Of a stretch of DNA of 64,000 nucleotides, positions 6,801 to 14,684 are shown one piece after another (the first letter of the stretch is position 1; each line of letters opens with the position of its first letter). Under the pieces are notes generated by a model. The model saw nothing but the letters and a program-made list of their open reading frames with translations. It made no database searches and had not been told where the DNA came from. The translations under genes and the position numbers were made by a program. Source of the stretch: Chthoniobacteraceae bacterium (GTDB taxonomy: Bacteria; Verrucomicrobiota; Verrucomicrobiia; Chthoniobacterales; Chthoniobacteraceae); contig JAQGOL010000030.1 of the NCBI GenBank assembly GCA_028293625.1, positions 124,001 to 188,000 of the forward strand, in the 5' to 3' direction.

Positions 6801-7964
6801 ATGCTCCTCTCCAACGCGCGCCTTCTTTATACCGACCGCATCGCACCGCACGGTCACCTTCGGATCCTTGATGGAAAAATCGCCGCAATCAGCGATCGGC
6901 CCATTGAAATAATGCCCGGCGAAACGGTCGTCGATGTCGGCGGACAATTTCTCTCGCCGGGCTTTATCGACATGCATATCCACGGCGCGATGCGGCGGGA
7001 TACGATGGAGGCAGACGCTGTGGCATTTGAAACCATTTGCCGGCATCACGCCCGCGGCGGCACCACTTCACTGACTTTAACCACGGTCACGGCGCCTTTT
7101 GATGAGATCAAACGCGTCATCCAGGCCGTTGAAGCGTACCGCCTCGCCGCCGTGCCAAACAAAGGCGCTCAAGTGCTGGGAGTCCATGTGGAAGGGCCTT
7201 ATTTCTCTCCCCAAAAACCGGGCGCCCACCGGCCTGAACTACTCCGCAATCCGAGCCGCGAAAATTGGGAGCCGCTGCTTGCCGCCGGCAACGTCACCCA
7301 GATGACCATCGCCCCGGAACTGCCCGGCGCGCTGGAGCTGATCGAAGCGCTCGCCACGGCCGGTATCCGGGCCAGCGGCGGCCACAGCGATGCCTGGGAA
7401 GAAGAAGCCGCGGCCGGATTCGCTCATGGAATGCGGCAGGCGACGCATACCTTTAATTGCATGTCGAGCGCCCGAAAACGCGGCGCTTACCGGGTCGCGG
7501 GCCTGCTTGAGTTTGCCCTGAGCGAGCCGGAAATGATTTGCGAACTGATCGCTGACGGACGGCATGTCTGCCCGACCCTGATGCGGATGCTTTATCTGGC
7601 AAAAGGGCCCGATGGGATCGTGCTCATTACCGACGCCACGGCCGGAGCGGGCCTTGATGAAGAGCAACCCTTTAACCTTTCCGGCATCGACTGTGTAGTC
7701 CGCGATGGCGTCGGCTTAACCGCGGACGGCCTGGCGCTTGCCGGCAGCACAAGCACTATGATTCGTGGAATCAAAAACATGGTCCAGCTCGTCGGCGTTC
7801 AGCTCGTGGAAGCGGTGCAAATGGCGACGCTTAACCCCGCACGCGCTCTGGGCATTGAGAAGCACAAAGGCATTCTTGAAATCGGCGTCGATGCCGATCT
7901 GGTCACTTTTAACGACCAATTCGAAGTGAGCCGCACCTGGATTGCCGGCCGGGCGCAGGATTAA
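6801..7964 (+). CDS. nagA: N-acetylglucosamine-6-phosphate deacetylase NagA
   Basis: Amidohydrolase-superfamily enzyme that removes acetate from GlcNAc-6-P, supplying the NagB substrate or feeding amino-sugar recycling. The 387 residues show the metal motif FIDMHIHG (His59, His61), the metal-binding Glu in GVHVEGPYF (131), ASGGHSDA, the THTFN histidine and the catalytic Asp in LITDATAGAG. It follows nagB with 6 nt spacing. The next gene begins 10 nt after the stop and may be cotranscribed. Confidence 0.95.
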   Translation: MLLSNARLLYTDRIAPHGHLRILDGKIAAISDRPIEIMPGETVVDVGGQFLSPGFIDMHIHGAMRRDTMEADAVAFETICRHHARGGTTSLTLTTVTAPFDEIKRVIQAVEAYRLAAVPNKGAQVLGVHVEGPYFSPQKPGAHRPELLRNPSRENWEPLLAAGNVTQMTIAPELPGALELIEALATAGIRASGGHSDAWEEEAAAGFAHGMRQATHTFNCMSSARKRGAYRVAGLLEFALSEPEMICELIADGRHVCPTLMRMLYLAKGPDGIVLITDATAGAGLDEEQPFNLSGIDCVVRDGVGLTADGLALAGSTSTMIRGIKNMVQLVGVQLVEAVQMATLNPARALGIEKHKGILEIGVDADLVTFNDQFEVSRTWIAGRAQD

Positions 7965-7974
7965 ACCTCCGTCC

Positions 7975-9063
7975 ATGTCCGAAGCACCCGCCCTCAAGGA
8001 ACTGTTCAACGCCGCGCGGTTTCAACATATCGCGCATGAGCTCGCGGCGCTGCATCCGGGCTTCGATGCCGCGCGCTTTCTTGAACTTTCCCTCGCGGAA
8101 ATGGAGGAGCTCAGCCTCATGCAAAGACTGCGCCGCATGACGGAAAGCCTTCACGCCACGCTTCCCGCCGATTACCGCAAAACAGTCGCGATCCTGCGCC
8201 AGTTGGCTCCGCGCATTAACCGCGGATTTGTCACGCTCGTGCTTCCCGATTATACAGCGCTTTACGGCCTCGACGATTTCCAGGCTTCCATGGACGCCCT
8301 GAAATTCTTCACCCCATTCGGCTCCTCGGAATTCGCCATCCGCGAGTTTTTACGGCGCGACCTCTCCCGCACCCTGGCGGTGATGGAAACCTGGTCGCGC
8401 GACCCGGATGAAGCAGTCCGCCGCCTGGCGAGCGAGGGAAGCCGCCCGCGTCTGCCGTGGTCGTTTCGGATTGAAGCGCTCGTGGCGGATCCTACGCCGG
8501 TCGTTGTCATCCTGGAAAATCTCAAAGCCGATCCGAGCCTGTATGTGCGCAAATCGGTGGCCAATCATCTGAACGATATCACCAAGGATCATCCGGATTG
8601 GGTCCTCGATCGCCTGGAAAAATGGCCGCTTAACAACCCGCATACCGCGTGGATCGTCAAACACGCCTTGCGCACCCTGATTAAAAAAGGGAATCAACGC
8701 GCCCTGGCAATCATCGGCGCCGGAGAGGAACCAGAAGTGCTCATCCACGGCTTTAAAGTTAAGCCGCGCGAGATCAGACTGGGCGACCGGATCACCCTTT
8801 CTTTTTGCCTGGAATCAACGTCGCAAAAACCGCAGCGGCTCGTTGTCGATTACGTCGTCCATTACGTTAAAAAATCGGGCATTACCTCGGGCAAAGTCTT
8901 CAAGCTCAAAGAGTTCACACTCGGCGCCGGGGAATCACTCTCCATCGCGCGCAGCCAGAGCATTCGCGATTTTACCACGCGCCTGCACCACCCGGGACGC
9001 CATGAGGTGGACGTGGTTATTAATGGCAAAAGCGTGGCCCGGGATTTCTTTCAGCTCGGTTAA
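7975..9063 (+). CDS. AlkC-like DNA alkylation repair protein (HEAT-like repeats plus beta-rich C-terminus)
   Basis: A 362-residue protein resembling the AlkC branch of HEAT-like-repeat DNA glycosylases, which excise 3-methyl-purines without base flipping. Helical repeats fill about residues 1-255, with the family-like stretches LYVRKSVANHLND, PHTAWIVKHALRTL and the aromatic/acidic PWSFRIEAL. The last ~110 residues switch to alternating beta-strand patterns, matching the Ig-like C-terminal domain known in one AlkC subset. ATG 7975 is preferred over an upstream ATG inside nagA. Its position behind nagBA has no clear functional reason. Substrate range is not predictable here. Confidence 0.75.
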   Translation: MSEAPALKELFNAARFQHIAHELAALHPGFDAARFLELSLAEMEELSLMQRLRRMTESLHATLPADYRKTVAILRQLAPRINRGFVTLVLPDYTALYGLDDFQASMDALKFFTPFGSSEFAIREFLRRDLSRTLAVMETWSRDPDEAVRRLASEGSRPRLPWSFRIEALVADPTPVVVILENLKADPSLYVRKSVANHLNDITKDHPDWVLDRLEKWPLNNPHTAWIVKHALRTLIKKGNQRALAIIGAGEEPEVLIHGFKVKPREIRLGDRITLSFCLESTSQKPQRLVVDYVVHYVKKSGITSGKVFKLKEFTLGAGESLSIARSQSIRDFTTRLHHPGRHEVDVVINGKSVARDFFQLG

Positions 9064-9199: not shown

Positions 9200-10492
9200 A
9201 TGCAGCAATTCCGAATAGGAATCGAGGGAATGGGGAATTTCGGGGCGGGTGTTTTTAAGCACCTGACGCAAAATCGTGCCCTTCTGCGGGAACGACTCGG
9301 CTACGAAATGTCGATCGGCAAAATCGCCGTGCGCGATCTCGGGCGCGACCGCGGGGTCGATGTGCCGCCGCAATTGCTCACCACCAACTGGCGTGAACTC
9401 CTGGATGATTCGTCCACGCAGATCATCGTCGAGTTGATGGGCCAAAAAGAAGAGAGCCTCGAGCTCATTCTCGGCGCGATCGAACGCAAAAAAATCGTCG
9501 TGACCGGCAACAAGGCGCTCCTGGCCGAGCACGGCAAAGAGATCTTCGAATCCGCGTTTGCGCATAAGGTGCCCGTCTTTTTCGAGGCGGCGGTTGGCGG
9601 TGGAATCCCGATCATCAAATCGATCCGGGAAGCGTTTATTGCCAATCATATCCAATCCGTGCACGGCATCGTGAACGGGACCAGCAATTACATTCTCACC
9701 CGGATGACGGAGGCGGGACTTGGCTTTAAAGAAGCGCTGGCTGAAGCGCAGGCCGCCGGTTACGCCGAGGCCGATCCGGCTCTTGACGTCAATGGCGGCG
9801 ATGCGGCCCATAAAGCGATCATCCTTGCCTCGCTCGCGTACGGCTTCTGGGTGCCGCCCGAGAAGGTTTTCGTTGAAGGCATCGAAAACATCAGCGCGAG
9901 CGACATCTGTTTTGCCCGCCAATTCGGCTACCGGATCAAATTGCTCGCGATCTTAAAAGCTAATGAAGGCGAGATTGAAGTGCGCGTGCATCCGACCCTG
10001 ATTCCCGAATCGCATGTGCTCGCGAGCGTCAACGGCGTCTTTAATGCGATGGCGGTCAAAGGCGACGTTGTCGGTGAATCGCTCTTTTACGGACGCGGCG
10101 CCGGCCAGGATGCCACTTCGAGCGCGGTCATCAGCGACATCGTGGAAGCGGCCGACGCATTGCAATCGCCGCGGCGCAATCTTGGGTTCATGCCGCACGG
10201 GCTCTATGGGACCTGCAAGCCGATCGATCAGATCGTTTCGGAATATTATTTGCGGCTCACCGTGGACGATCGGCCCGGCGTCATCGCACAGGTTGCAGGC
10301 ATCCTGGGAGCGCTTAACATTGGCATCTCCTCCATTCTTCAACCCGAAGCAGCCGAGGGCGAAATCGTCTCCCTTGTGCTGATGATCCATCGGGCCACCA
10401 ACTCACAAATGACCGCCGCGCTCGCCCAGATGGAAGCGCTTGAGTGCGTCAAAAAGCAGCCGCGAATGATTCGCGTCGAACATTTCTCATGA
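9200..10492 (+). CDS. hom: Homoserine dehydrogenase with C-terminal ACT domain
   Basis: Reduces aspartate semialdehyde to homoserine, the branch point to threonine and methionine. The 430-residue product has the nucleotide-binding GIEGMGNFG loop (7-15), the catalytic-domain signature VNGTSNYIL, the [20 protein letters not shown] region and an ACT domain from about residue 348 ([15 protein letters not shown]), the usual site of threonine feedback control. Its stop overlaps the thrC start as ATGA, so the two are coupled. Confidence 0.96.
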
Positions 10493-11580
10493 TTTTCCGC
10501 CCGCTCAATGACCGTGGCGTCATCGCCCGCTGGCAGCAATACCTGCCAGTCAGTGACGCCACTCCCTTTGTTTCCCTCAATGAAGGAAGCACGCCGCTTA
10601 TTCATTCCCCCAAGCTCAGCGCCAAGGTCGGCCGCGGCTGCGAGTTCTATATCAAATACGAGGGATTAAATCCCACCGGCTCCTTTAAGGATCGCGGAAT
10701 GACGGTTGCCATTTCAAAAGCGATTGAAGAAGGCGCCGAAGCCGTCATTTGCGCTTCCACCGGGAACACCTCCGCAGCGGCGGCTGCTTATGCCGCCCGC
10801 GCCGGCATTACCTGCGTGGTCCTCTTGCCCGCCGGCAAGATCGCGTTTGGCAAATTGGCCCAGGCCTTTATGTATGGAGCCAAGGTCGTCGCCATCGACG
10901 GCAATTTCGACGACGCGCTCCGGCTGGTCCGTGAAATTGGCGAGACCGAACCAATCGCCATCGTCAACTCCATCAACCCATACCGGCTTCAAGGTCAGAA
11001 AACCGCCGCGTTCGAAATTATTGAAGAACTGGGCGACGCGCCTGACTTCCACGTCCTGCCGGTGGGCAACGCCGGCAACATCAGCGCCTATTGGATGGGC
11101 TACCAGGAGTTTCATCAGCTTGGAAAAGCGAGCCGCGCACCGCGCATGATCGGTTTCCAGGCCTCCGGTTCAGCGCCGATCTTCCACAATAAGGTGATTG
11201 AAAATCCCGACACGATTGCCACCGCGATCCGCATCGGCAATCCGGCGAGTTGGGAATACGCGACCGCGGCCGTGACCAACAGCAACGGCGCCATCGACAT
11301 CGTCACCGACGAGGAAATTCTCTCCGCGCAGATGTGGCTGGCTTCCAACGAAGGGATCTACGTCGAGCCCGCCAGCGCCGCGGGGATCGCCGGCATCTTC
11401 AAGTCGCTCGATCCGGCGCGTGCCGCCGAGCGGCGTTTTCCCGAGATCCCCGAAGGGAGCCGTATTGTCTGCACCGTCACCGGCCATGGATTAAAAGATC
11501 CCGATGTCGCCAAGGAACAGTGCGGCAGCGTTATTCCGGCCCCCGCGGAAAAAAATGAGATCCTTCGCCGCCTGACATAA
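10489..11580 (+). CDS. thrC: Threonine synthase ThrC
   Basis: PLP enzyme converting O-phosphohomoserine to threonine. The 363-residue, short bacterial form carries the PLP lysine in [11 protein letters not shown] (Lys67), the [10 protein letters not shown] phosphate loop and a second glycine-rich loop [13 protein letters not shown] 10489 overlaps the hom TGA (ATGA). A frame extension upstream lies inside hom and is not conserved. The next gene begins 89 nt downstream. Confidence 0.96.
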
Positions 11581-11669: not shown

Positions 11670-13451
11670 ATGAATTTGCCCTATAGCTGGATTGACTGCG
11701 CCTCTTGGGAACTCGATTTCTTTTCCCTGCCACACCGGATTCCGTGGCCAAACGACGTGGCTCCCGAGGTTGCCACAAACGATCCGTTTGAACTCGAACA
11801 TCTGGTGACCGCCATTGAACTGATGGGACCGGAAGCCGAACAGCCATGGAAAGGATTCGCGGAAGCCTCCCATTTTTTCGAACCGCTCAGTGAAGCGCTC
11901 GAAGACTCCGAGATCGCCAATGCGCGCAACCTGCTCAACCAGATTGAAGCGGTTCATCCGGGCACTTCGTTCCGGCTTTTTCACGAAGCGTATATTGCCC
12001 GCCACGAAGGACGTCTTGAGGACGCGATTGGCCTTTACAAACAAGCCGTCGAGAAAACGCCCGGCGTGCTCGATATCTGGAAAAACCTCGGGGTGCTTCT
12101 CGGAATGACAGGACATCGCGATGAAGCGGTCGCCGCATTCCGCAAAATTCTCGCCACGGCGCCCAGCGATCATACCGCCCTTGAAGGGCTTGCCCAATTG
12201 CGCGAGCTCGTAAAACTGATCCGCGATCCAAACGATCCGAAATCAGCCATGTATGTCGAGATCCCGACATTCCGCCAGATGGCCACCAATCAGATCACCA
12301 ATCTCGCGCAGGATCCCGATCAGCTGCTGGCTTACGGCGAGGAACTGTTCCGCGGTGGAATCGTGCCCGACGTCGGATTGGCAGCTCTTGAAGCGGCCCG
12401 CACAGCCCGCCCGGATCATCCGCGCACCATTTTTGCGGTCGCTTCGGCCTACCGCACAATGGGCCGTTTGGAAGAGGCGCACGCCTCCATCACACAGCTT
12501 ACTCAACTTCTTCCGGACAACGCCGAAGCCTATTTCCATCTCGCGCAGGTCAACAACGCGATGGGCAATCCGGAAGCCGAACGCGCCGCGCTGACCCGCA
12601 CCCTGGAGTTAAATCCAAACGTGCAATCGGCCCTGGGCATCTGGTTTGAACTCAAGCCAGGCGAACACGATCCCAAAAAGGAACAGCAACTCGTAGAGTT
12701 CGCCGAGGAACGCAAATCGTGGATGGCGTTTGTGCTCGCCAGCGCGCTTTGCCGCGAGCGCGGCGATTTCCCACGGGCCGTGCGGTGGGCCGAACGCGCT
12801 GTTGAAATTGAACCTGAATCCGAGGAAGCGCTCCTCCATTTGACGGCCATCATTGGCGATGCGCGGGACATCCAGAAGCTGGCGAGCGCGGTCAAACCGA
12901 AAGTCGATAGCGGCAAGTTCTCCAAACGCCTCGACTGGAATTACGCCCATGTGCTTCGCCAGCTGGGCCTCACTAACGACGCTGTTCACGTGCTGCGCAA
13001 AGCGGCGGCCACCGAAGGCGCCCCTGAAGATTTCAAAGCCGCCTGTTCGACTTCCCTTGAAGCCTGGGGCGGCCTGCTCGCCGGCACCAATGTGCCGCTT
13101 GAAGTCCATGAATCCGGCGTGCTCCTGCGCGATGTGCTCCTGAGACTCGAAGACGATGACGGCGGCGTGATCCTCAATGCCGGTTCGCAAACCCCGGCCC
13201 AAGGCGTCTTCCCGTGGCGCGCCAATGCTTCGGAAACGAGCGTCACGTTGCAGCAGGGTCAGACCGGCAGCGCGGTTGCACCCCGCAGCCTTGGCGAATT
13301 TAAAGTTGGCAGTATCCAGATCACCCCGGGCGAACCGGCCACGATCGAGTGCCACCTCACGGCCCTGCCAGATGGTGCGTTGCATTTCCGCGCGGCACAA
13401 AACGGCAAACGCCTGCAAGTGGGATGGGCGCCTCCGCGCCTGGTGGCTTAA
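11670..13451 (+). CDS. TPR protein with C-terminal Hsp70 substrate-binding-like beta domain
   Basis: A 593-residue protein with no signal peptide or membrane helix. TPR-type helix pairs are clear at about residues 106-175 (e.g. EGRLEDAIGLYKQAVEKTPG) and about 245-320, with weaker ones between and after. From about residue 484 the character changes to beta strands: LLRDVLL, a GG turn, SLGEF at 540-544 and PDGALHFRA align in order and spacing with the DnaK substrate-binding beta domain (LLLLDV, SLGQF, DGILHVSA). No Hsp70 ATPase domain is present. It sits between thrC and lysC, 15 nt before lysC, so it is probably cotranscribed with threonine biosynthesis. The TPR call is secure; the Hsp70-like domain is inferred by eye. 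Confidence 0.75.
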   Translation: MNLPYSWIDCASWELDFFSLPHRIPWPNDVAPEVATNDPFELEHLVTAIELMGPEAEQPWKGFAEASHFFEPLSEALEDSEIANARNLLNQIEAVHPGTSFRLFHEAYIARHEGRLEDAIGLYKQAVEKTPGVLDIWKNLGVLLGMTGHRDEAVAAFRKILATAPSDHTALEGLAQLRELVKLIRDPNDPKSAMYVEIPTFRQMATNQITNLAQDPDQLLAYGEELFRGGIVPDVGLAALEAARTARPDHPRTIFAVASAYRTMGRLEEAHASITQLTQLLPDNAEAYFHLAQVNNAMGNPEAERAALTRTLELNPNVQSALGIWFELKPGEHDPKKEQQLVEFAEERKSWMAFVLASALCRERGDFPRAVRWAERAVEIEPESEEALLHLTAIIGDARDIQKLASAVKPKVDSGKFSKRLDWNYAHVLRQLGLTNDAVHVLRKAAATEGAPEDFKAACSTSLEAWGGLLAGTNVPLEVHESGVLLRDVLLRLEDDDGGVILNAGSQTPAQGVFPWRANASETSVTLQQGQTGSAVAPRSLGEFKVGSIQITPGEPATIECHLTALPDGALHFRAAQNGKRLQVGWAPPRLVA

Positions 13452-13466
13452 TCAGCCGATTTTTCA

Positions 13467-14684
13467 ATGGCACTCATTGTCCAAAAATACGGCGGCACCT
13501 CGGTTGGCACCCCGGAACGCATCTTAAACGTCGCGCGCCGGGTCATTGCCACCAAGGATGCCGGCAACCAGGTCGTTGTCGTCGTCTCAGCCATGAGCGG
13601 CGCAACCGATTCGCTCATCAAGCTTGCGAAAGAAATCTCCCCCAATCCAAGCGAACGCGAGCTGGATGTTCTGCTCTCCACGGGCGAACAGACCACGATT
13701 GCGCTTACGGCCATGGCGATGAATTCTTTGGGCTGCAAAGCGGTTTCCATGACCGGCGCCCAGGCCGGCATCGTCACGGACGGTTTTCATACCAAAGCCA
13801 AGATCGCCAATATCGAGCCGAGGCAGATCCACAGTCATCTTGATGATGGCAATGTGGTGATCGTGGCCGGATTCCAGGGCGAGACCAGCGAAGGCCACAT
13901 CACCACGCTTGGACGCGGCGGCAGCGACCTGACCGCCATCGCCATTGCCTCGGCGATCGAAGCCGATCTCTGCCAGATCTTTACCGATGTCGATGGCGTC
14001 TACACTTGCGACCCGCGCATTGTGCCGACCGCCAGGAAGATCGACGAAATCTGCTACGACGAGATGCTTGAGATGGCCTCCAGCGGCTCCAAAGTCATGC
14101 AATCGCGTTCCGTCGAGTTCGCCAAAAAATACGGCGTGCTCTTTGAAGTGCGCAGCAGCTTCAATCAGAACCCAGGAACCCTCGTTCAGGAAGAGACTAA
14201 AGATATGGAACACGTCGTCGTCCGCGGACTCAGCGTCGAAAAAAATCAGGCAAAAGTGACCATCACCAACGTGCCCGATCGTCCCGGCACGGCGGCCCGG
14301 ATTTTCACGACCCTGGCGACCACCGGTGTGATCATCGACATGATCGTGCAGAATGTGAGCACTGCCGGAACGACCGACATTTCATTTACGCTCAACAAAG
14401 ATGAGCTGCCCAAAGTGGAAGCAAGCCTTGCCAGCGTGATCATCGAGATCGGCGCCGCGGCATTGATTGCCACGCAAGGGGTTGCCAAGCTCAGCGTGGT
14501 TGGAATCGGCATGCGCTCGCATAGCGGTGTCGCAGCCAAGCTTTTTGAAGCGTTGAGCAATGCCGGAATCAATATCCAGATGATTTCCACCAGCGAAATC
14601 AAGACCGCCGTGATCCTGGATGAATCCAAGATCACCGAGGCCGCCAACGTCGTCCACGCCGCATTCGGCCTGGATAAAAGCTAA
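13467..14684 (+). CDS. lysC: Aspartate kinase (LysC type)
   Basis: Phosphorylates aspartate, the first step of the Lys/Thr/Met pathway. The 405-residue monofunctional enzyme starts with the kinase signature VQKYGGTSVG, carries TLGRGGSDLTA and the TDVDGVYTCDPR nucleotide loop, and ends in two ACT domains (about 265-405) of the feedback-regulated class; NVPDRPGTAARIF marks the first. It ends the hom-thrC-TPR-lysC array. No internal start for a beta subunit was examined in detail. Confidence 0.96.
   Translation: MALIVQKYGGTSVGTPERILNVARRVIATKDAGNQVVVVVSAMSGATDSLIKLAKEISPNPSERELDVLLSTGEQTTIALTAMAMNSLGCKAVSMTGAQAGIVTDGFHTKAKIANIEPRQIHSHLDDGNVVIVAGFQGETSEGHITTLGRGGSDLTAIAIASAIEADLCQIFTDVDGVYTCDPRIVPTARKIDEICYDEMLEMASSGSKVMQSRSVEFAKKYGVLFEVRSSFNQNPGTLVQEETKDMEHVVVRGLSVEKNQAKVTITNVPDRPGTAARIFTTLATTGVIIDMIVQNVSTAGTTDISFTLNKDELPKVEASLASVIIEIGAAALIATQGVAKLSVVGIGMRSHSGVAAKLFEALSNAGINIQMISTSEIKTAVILDESKITEAANVVHAAFGLDKS

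Follow-up and report, generated by a model that had tools for sequence, protein, structure and literature searches.

A TPR protein of a Verrucomicrobiota family ends in a divergent Hsp70 substrate-binding β-domain without the ATPase

The last ~110 residues of a TPR protein encoded in the genome of a Chthoniobacteraceae bacterium form an Hsp70 substrate-binding β-domain (SBDβ) that is genuine, though divergent. The window analysed, a whole stretch of 64,000 nucleotides, carries the gene for this TPR-SBDβ protein between thrC and lysC, with its start 89 nt past the former and its end 15 nt ahead of the latter (Table 1). The open reading frame coordinates confirm where the first-pass annotation had placed the gene relative to thrC and lysC. 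All the motifs it had quoted as DnaK-like are present: LLRDVLL (residues 485-491), GG (498-499), TSVTLQQGQ (523-531), SLGEF (540-544), IE (559-560) and PDGALHFRA (567-575). Upstream of hom, an open reading frame of 373 aa (7942-9063) matches the Pfam DNA_alkylation family (HEAT-like repeats) with an E-value of 1.5e-6, and a scan for promoters and terminators gave a number of sites not above that in shuffled sequences.

Table 1. Features of the TPR-SBDβ gene and its neighbours (positions in the window).
Feature	Position	Strand	Remarks
TPR-SBDβ gene, CDS	11670..13451	+	593 aa; in order from the N-terminus: Trp/Pro-rich segment, TPR solenoid, Hsp70 SBDβ-like domain
Residues 1-41, conserved N-terminal segment	11670..11792	+	two short strands predicted
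Residues 42-466, TPR-type helical solenoid	11793..13067	+	~12 helix pairs, pLDDT mostly >90
Residues 481-593, Hsp70 SBDβ-like domain	13110..13451	+	profile, profile-profile, AlphaFold, Foldseek
Predicted SBDβ strands			residues 489-492, 497-502, 510-518, 523-529, 539-547, 557-565, 571-577, 583-587
QQGQ, residues 528-531	13251..13262	+	aligned to DnaK L-Q-G-E ending at E444
LGEF, residues 541-544	13290..13301	+	aligned to DnaK LGQF 454-457
PDGALHFRA, residues 567-575	13368..13394	+	aligned to DnaK ADGILHVSA
LQVGW, residues 582-586	13413..13427	+	last strand; family consensus LPVxW, V and W invariant
hom, homoserine dehydrogenase	9200..10492	+	
thrC, PLP-dependent enzyme (threonine synthase by context)	10489..11580	+	4-nt overlap with hom
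lysC, aspartokinase with ACT domains	13467..14684	+	

As a single sequence, the C-terminus ranks DnaK first in the PDB with a non-significant E-value of 0.047, and its sole Pfam match is HSP70 with an E-value of 0.16, short of the curated cut-off; such values would also fit a chance or convergent β-sandwich unrelated to Hsp70. Homologs were gathered across 57 related genomes, and 23 C-termini (the window protein and 22 others) were combined into alignment A1. Searched against 177,635 distinct PDB sequences, the A1 profile gave 63 matches, the best 60 of which are all Hsp70s. The top match is the E. coli DnaK SBD (E-value 1.4e-5), and mitochondrial and cytosolic Hsp70, HscA, BiP of the ER and Ssb are among the matches listed. 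At a loose threshold (E-value up to 10), 11 of the 23 family members match Pfam HSP70 individually, the best with an E-value of 0.0015. The profile-profile comparison by hhalign of A1 with 17 DnaK-type SBDs (E. coli, relatives and paralogs) returned an E-value of 2.6e-7 and a probability of 93%, while the reversed A1 alignment, used as a control, gave zero signal against the same Hsp70 set. The statistically solid part of the sequence match spans β2/β3 to β7; support for the first strands comes from the predicted fold. In the opposite direction, a DnaK-SBD profile searched against the genome of the window detected three Hsp70s only, so that no further SBD-only gene emerged; it missed the TPR-SBDβ protein too, which shows how divergent its domain is.

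The AlphaFold2 model of the domain, built from A1, consists of eight strands with a mean pLDDT of 88.9 and a pTM of 0.81. Foldseek comparison of this model with the PDB (E-value 3e-6) returned Hsp70s by title for all but one of the best 50 matches, the exception being a Chlamydomonas ciliary central-pair chain. Against Hsp70 SBDs the model yields Z scores of 9-13 over ~105 residues. AMPylated BiP leads the comparison (Z 13.4, 104 residues, rmsd 2.1) and, together with the open ATP state of DnaK, fits best (Z 12.6-13.4; DnaK up to 12.9), whereas closed SBDs fit less well (Z 8.5-9.7). This is a hint that the predicted domain is nearest to the open, ATP-state SBDβ, to be read in the light of the many Hsp70 structures in AlphaFold training. 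The family profile, the profile-profile match, the predicted fold compared strand by strand and the reversed control agree in pointing to Hsp70, and on computational grounds they rule out a chance or convergent sandwich, leaving it the very slightest of probabilities. Thus the proposal of the first-pass annotation, a TPR arm bearing an Hsp70 substrate-domain likeness but no ATPase, is borne out by profile search, hhalign, the AlphaFold sandwich and Foldseek; the searches it had suggested, profile-profile and by superposition, yielded an Hsp70 match and a β-sandwich that superimposes on the DnaK SBD.

Several hallmarks of Hsp70 are absent. The protein has no Hsp70 ATPase, positions 1-380 of the HSP70 model are left without a match, and an ATPase hidden in the N-terminal part was ruled out, residues 42-466 being TPR by Pfam and AlphaFold. 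The helical lid (SBDα) is missing as well: all members end a few residues past the last strand, LPVxW, and no helices are predicted. The Hsp70 linker VLLLD is not conserved, most members reading LxRPVLL, and structural alignment places LLRDVLL of the window protein at strand β1. The motif-by-motif likeness to DnaK that had been claimed is statistically solid from β2/β3 to β7, and LLRDVLL is not a conserved copy of the linker.

In DnaK, M404 and A429 form the peptide-backbone arch. By sequence alignment these residues have no hydrophobic counterpart in the family, which has a D/G-rich L1,2 of uncertain alignment; because the alignment of β1 and L1,2 varies between programs, the statement on the arch is tentative. 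The alignment further shows that loop L3,4 has three residues fewer than in DnaK, that S427 is replaced by R or K, and that the pocket residue F426 is replaced by W in 22 of the 23 members. At other pocket positions the family has V or I for I438, A, T or V for V436, I, V or L for I472 and C for V474. Mapped in this way rather than on coordinates, the hydrophobic pocket seems to be retained but remodelled. A remodelled pocket, together with an arch that is not recognisable and the missing lid, would mean that generic binding of unfolded peptides cannot be assumed.

We tentatively favour, at a little below even confidence, a soluble, nucleotide-independent binding adaptor derived from the DnaK SBDβ. 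The TPR solenoid would then be a scaffold and probably a docking arm for a partner protein, and the C-terminal domain an SBDβ, nearest to that of canonical DnaK, detached from the ATPase motor and from the helical lid. A polypeptide segment would most likely be bound in a shallow cleft of the Hsp70 type. The pocket being altered and the lidless site permanently open, exchange would be passive, and it would be sequence, not an ATP cycle, that determines affinity. Judged from the alignment, conservation of the pocket mildly favours binding, whereas the apparent loss of the arch and the loss of the lid argue against it and could equally mean that the groove is disused. In the latter case exaptation may have turned the SBDβ into a structural or docking module: it would cap the TPR arm, make the arm dimerise, or contact a single folded partner through a surface, and its cleft would be dead. 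This second reading, which we regard as possible if doubtful, draws on the apparently absent arch residues, on the missing lid, on the remodelled pocket and on the invariant residues, which belong mostly to the fold signature (QG, LGxF, F-x-A, LPVxW) and not to arch positions. However, the pocket positions are still hydrophobic and conserved, with a near-invariant Trp at the F426 position, and a conserved fold core is expected under either reading. For the binding adaptor that we prefer, we infer a chaperone-like function. It is rather unlikely, but conceivable, that it represents a lineage-specific class of chaperones in which an SBDβ captured from DnaK is fixed open and lacks an ATP cycle, the TPR arm choosing the targets instead of J-proteins.

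The TPR repeats score above the Pfam cut-off (TPR_14, E-value 1.3e-23, plus others; tandem 34-residue helix pairs). In the full-length AlphaFold model (pLDDT 91.5, pTM 0.75) a short N-terminal β segment is followed by the TPR solenoid at ~42-466 and, last, by the sandwich. The N-terminal segment has the invariant residues W7, W13, F17, P21, P25 and W26 and is recognisable in a distant copy (locus L143) too; it has no family match, either in a PHROGs scan of residues 1-80 or in Pfam and NCBIfam, which reported only TPR. TPR arms are common as adaptors of Hsp70 and Hsp90, and the TPR part resembles many PDB superhelices, including P58(IPK), Tom70/71 and the TPR domain of OGT. The protein might accordingly act as a DnaK co-chaperone, its TPR arm holding DnaK or a client and its SBD-like domain receiving clients in trans or competing for them, and a canonical DnaK is encoded in the genome. 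Yet many unrelated TPR proteins match the superhelix equally well as P58(IPK) and Tom70/71, and the loci examined gave no sign of a conserved association with dnaK, dnaJ or grpE; we consider this role improbable.

The gene order hom-thrC-TPR-lysC, whole or partial, is found in the genus of the window (g1) and in its sister genus (g9), and in the protein tree these linked copies group together (support 96/95). In genus g5, thrC lies directly upstream of the gene in two genomes only (G025 and G341). The short gaps between the genes in the window and its g1/g9 relatives, and the two g5 loci, would suit a dedicated chaperone or an assembly or regulatory factor for homoserine dehydrogenase, threonine synthase and aspartokinase. 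Against such a role, neither thrC nor lysC is adjacent in any g4 copy examined, in the g6 copy or in the other g5 copies examined, and the protein is equally conserved there. In genome G003, lysC follows the gene but no thrC or hom is present within 6 kb upstream, and in other families of the order thrC-lysC is present without the TPR-SBDβ gene. A further copy, in G018, is followed by lysC, and thrC lies ~6 kb before it. Outside g1 and g9 no consistent genomic partner was found in the loci examined. Thus the special tie to amino-acid enzymes raised in the first-pass annotation did not hold up beyond adjacency in g1, g9 and two g5 genomes: a tie to the threonine and lysine genes is weak, as is the case for an operon-specific function, because most other genera lack the linkage. 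We give little credence to the dedicated factor, and the linkage to thrC and lysC may be ancestral and decaying.

Within one Verrucomicrobiota family (Chthoniobacter-like; soil and freshwater), 27 out of 40 genomes encode the TPR-SBDβ protein, and the domain is kept there with a mean column identity of 55%; the A1 profile matches 30 genomes of the family, three of them through DnaK alone. Among samples of the order (213 genomes) and the phylum (288 genomes), the only other matches were Hsp70 reading frames. Beyond Verrucomicrobiota, one peptide-pattern scan covered 84,980 genomes, with a reach limited to close relatives. A viral origin was rejected, since no relative turned up in a single pattern scan of viral contigs. 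The A1 profile scores canonical DnaKs at 24 to 15 bits and divergent Hsp70 paralogs at 17 bits to none; because canonical DnaKs score highest, the sequence comparison points to a capture of the SBDβ from a DnaK-like SBD.

Two divergent paralogs of ~25% identity (L143, 4478-6484, and L144, 4755-5567; in G025 and G028) keep the LGxF and LPVxW-like signatures. The former has the whole architecture and the latter comprises the C-terminal half of the TPR arm and the SBDβ ending. Residues invariant also across both are, in domain numbering, P53, P59, Q73, P82, L85, G86, F88, Q121, V128 and W130. In the G018 copy, a frame break near residues 131-136 (L025, 1493-1507) reflects a sequencing error or a pseudogene. 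A short SBD reading frame in G161 (L079) was rejected as an SBD-only gene, being part of a disrupted dnaK frame. Beyond the window but on its contig, at G000:C31:210.7-215.6 kb, lie two adjacent divergent Hsp70-like genes of 636 aa and at least 845 aa (L043 and L044) with recognisable ATPase motifs and a very divergent C-terminal half. Several genomes of the order have similar long reading frames. A split Hsp70 acting in trans with these two genes found no support, as similar frames are present in genomes without the TPR-SBDβ protein and neither gene is matched by the A1 profile.

To our knowledge, every natural SBDβ fold seen so far follows an Hsp70 ATPase, and the TPR-SBD architecture was not found in the open-access literature, the coverage of which was incomplete. 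The parts are known and their combination looks new. A natural SBDβ, motor-free and lid-free across a bacterial family, would open to direct study the action of the clamp without allostery and the re-use of a chaperone part as a plain binding domain. With TPR co-chaperones and adaptors such as P58(IPK), Tom70/71 and the TPR domain of OGT, the protein has the long TPR superhelix in common, and we know of none of these with a peptide-binding domain derived from Hsp70. With the SBDβ of DnaK/Hsp70 (PDB 1dkx, 4b9q; part of PF00012), it shares the eight-strand sandwich, the order of motifs and the signatures QG, LGxF and DG-x-L-x-x-x-A at ~18-20% identity, but it has no NBD, conserved linker or helical lid, and in comparison with DnaK its arch is not recognisable, L3,4 is shorter, F426 is changed to W and V436 to A/T. 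A Mycoplasma genitalium DnaK lacking SBDα (PDB 5obu/5obv), which is among the Foldseek matches, likewise presents an SBDβ without helices; in contrast to the TPR-SBDβ protein, this lid-deleted form is engineered and still attached to its ATPase.
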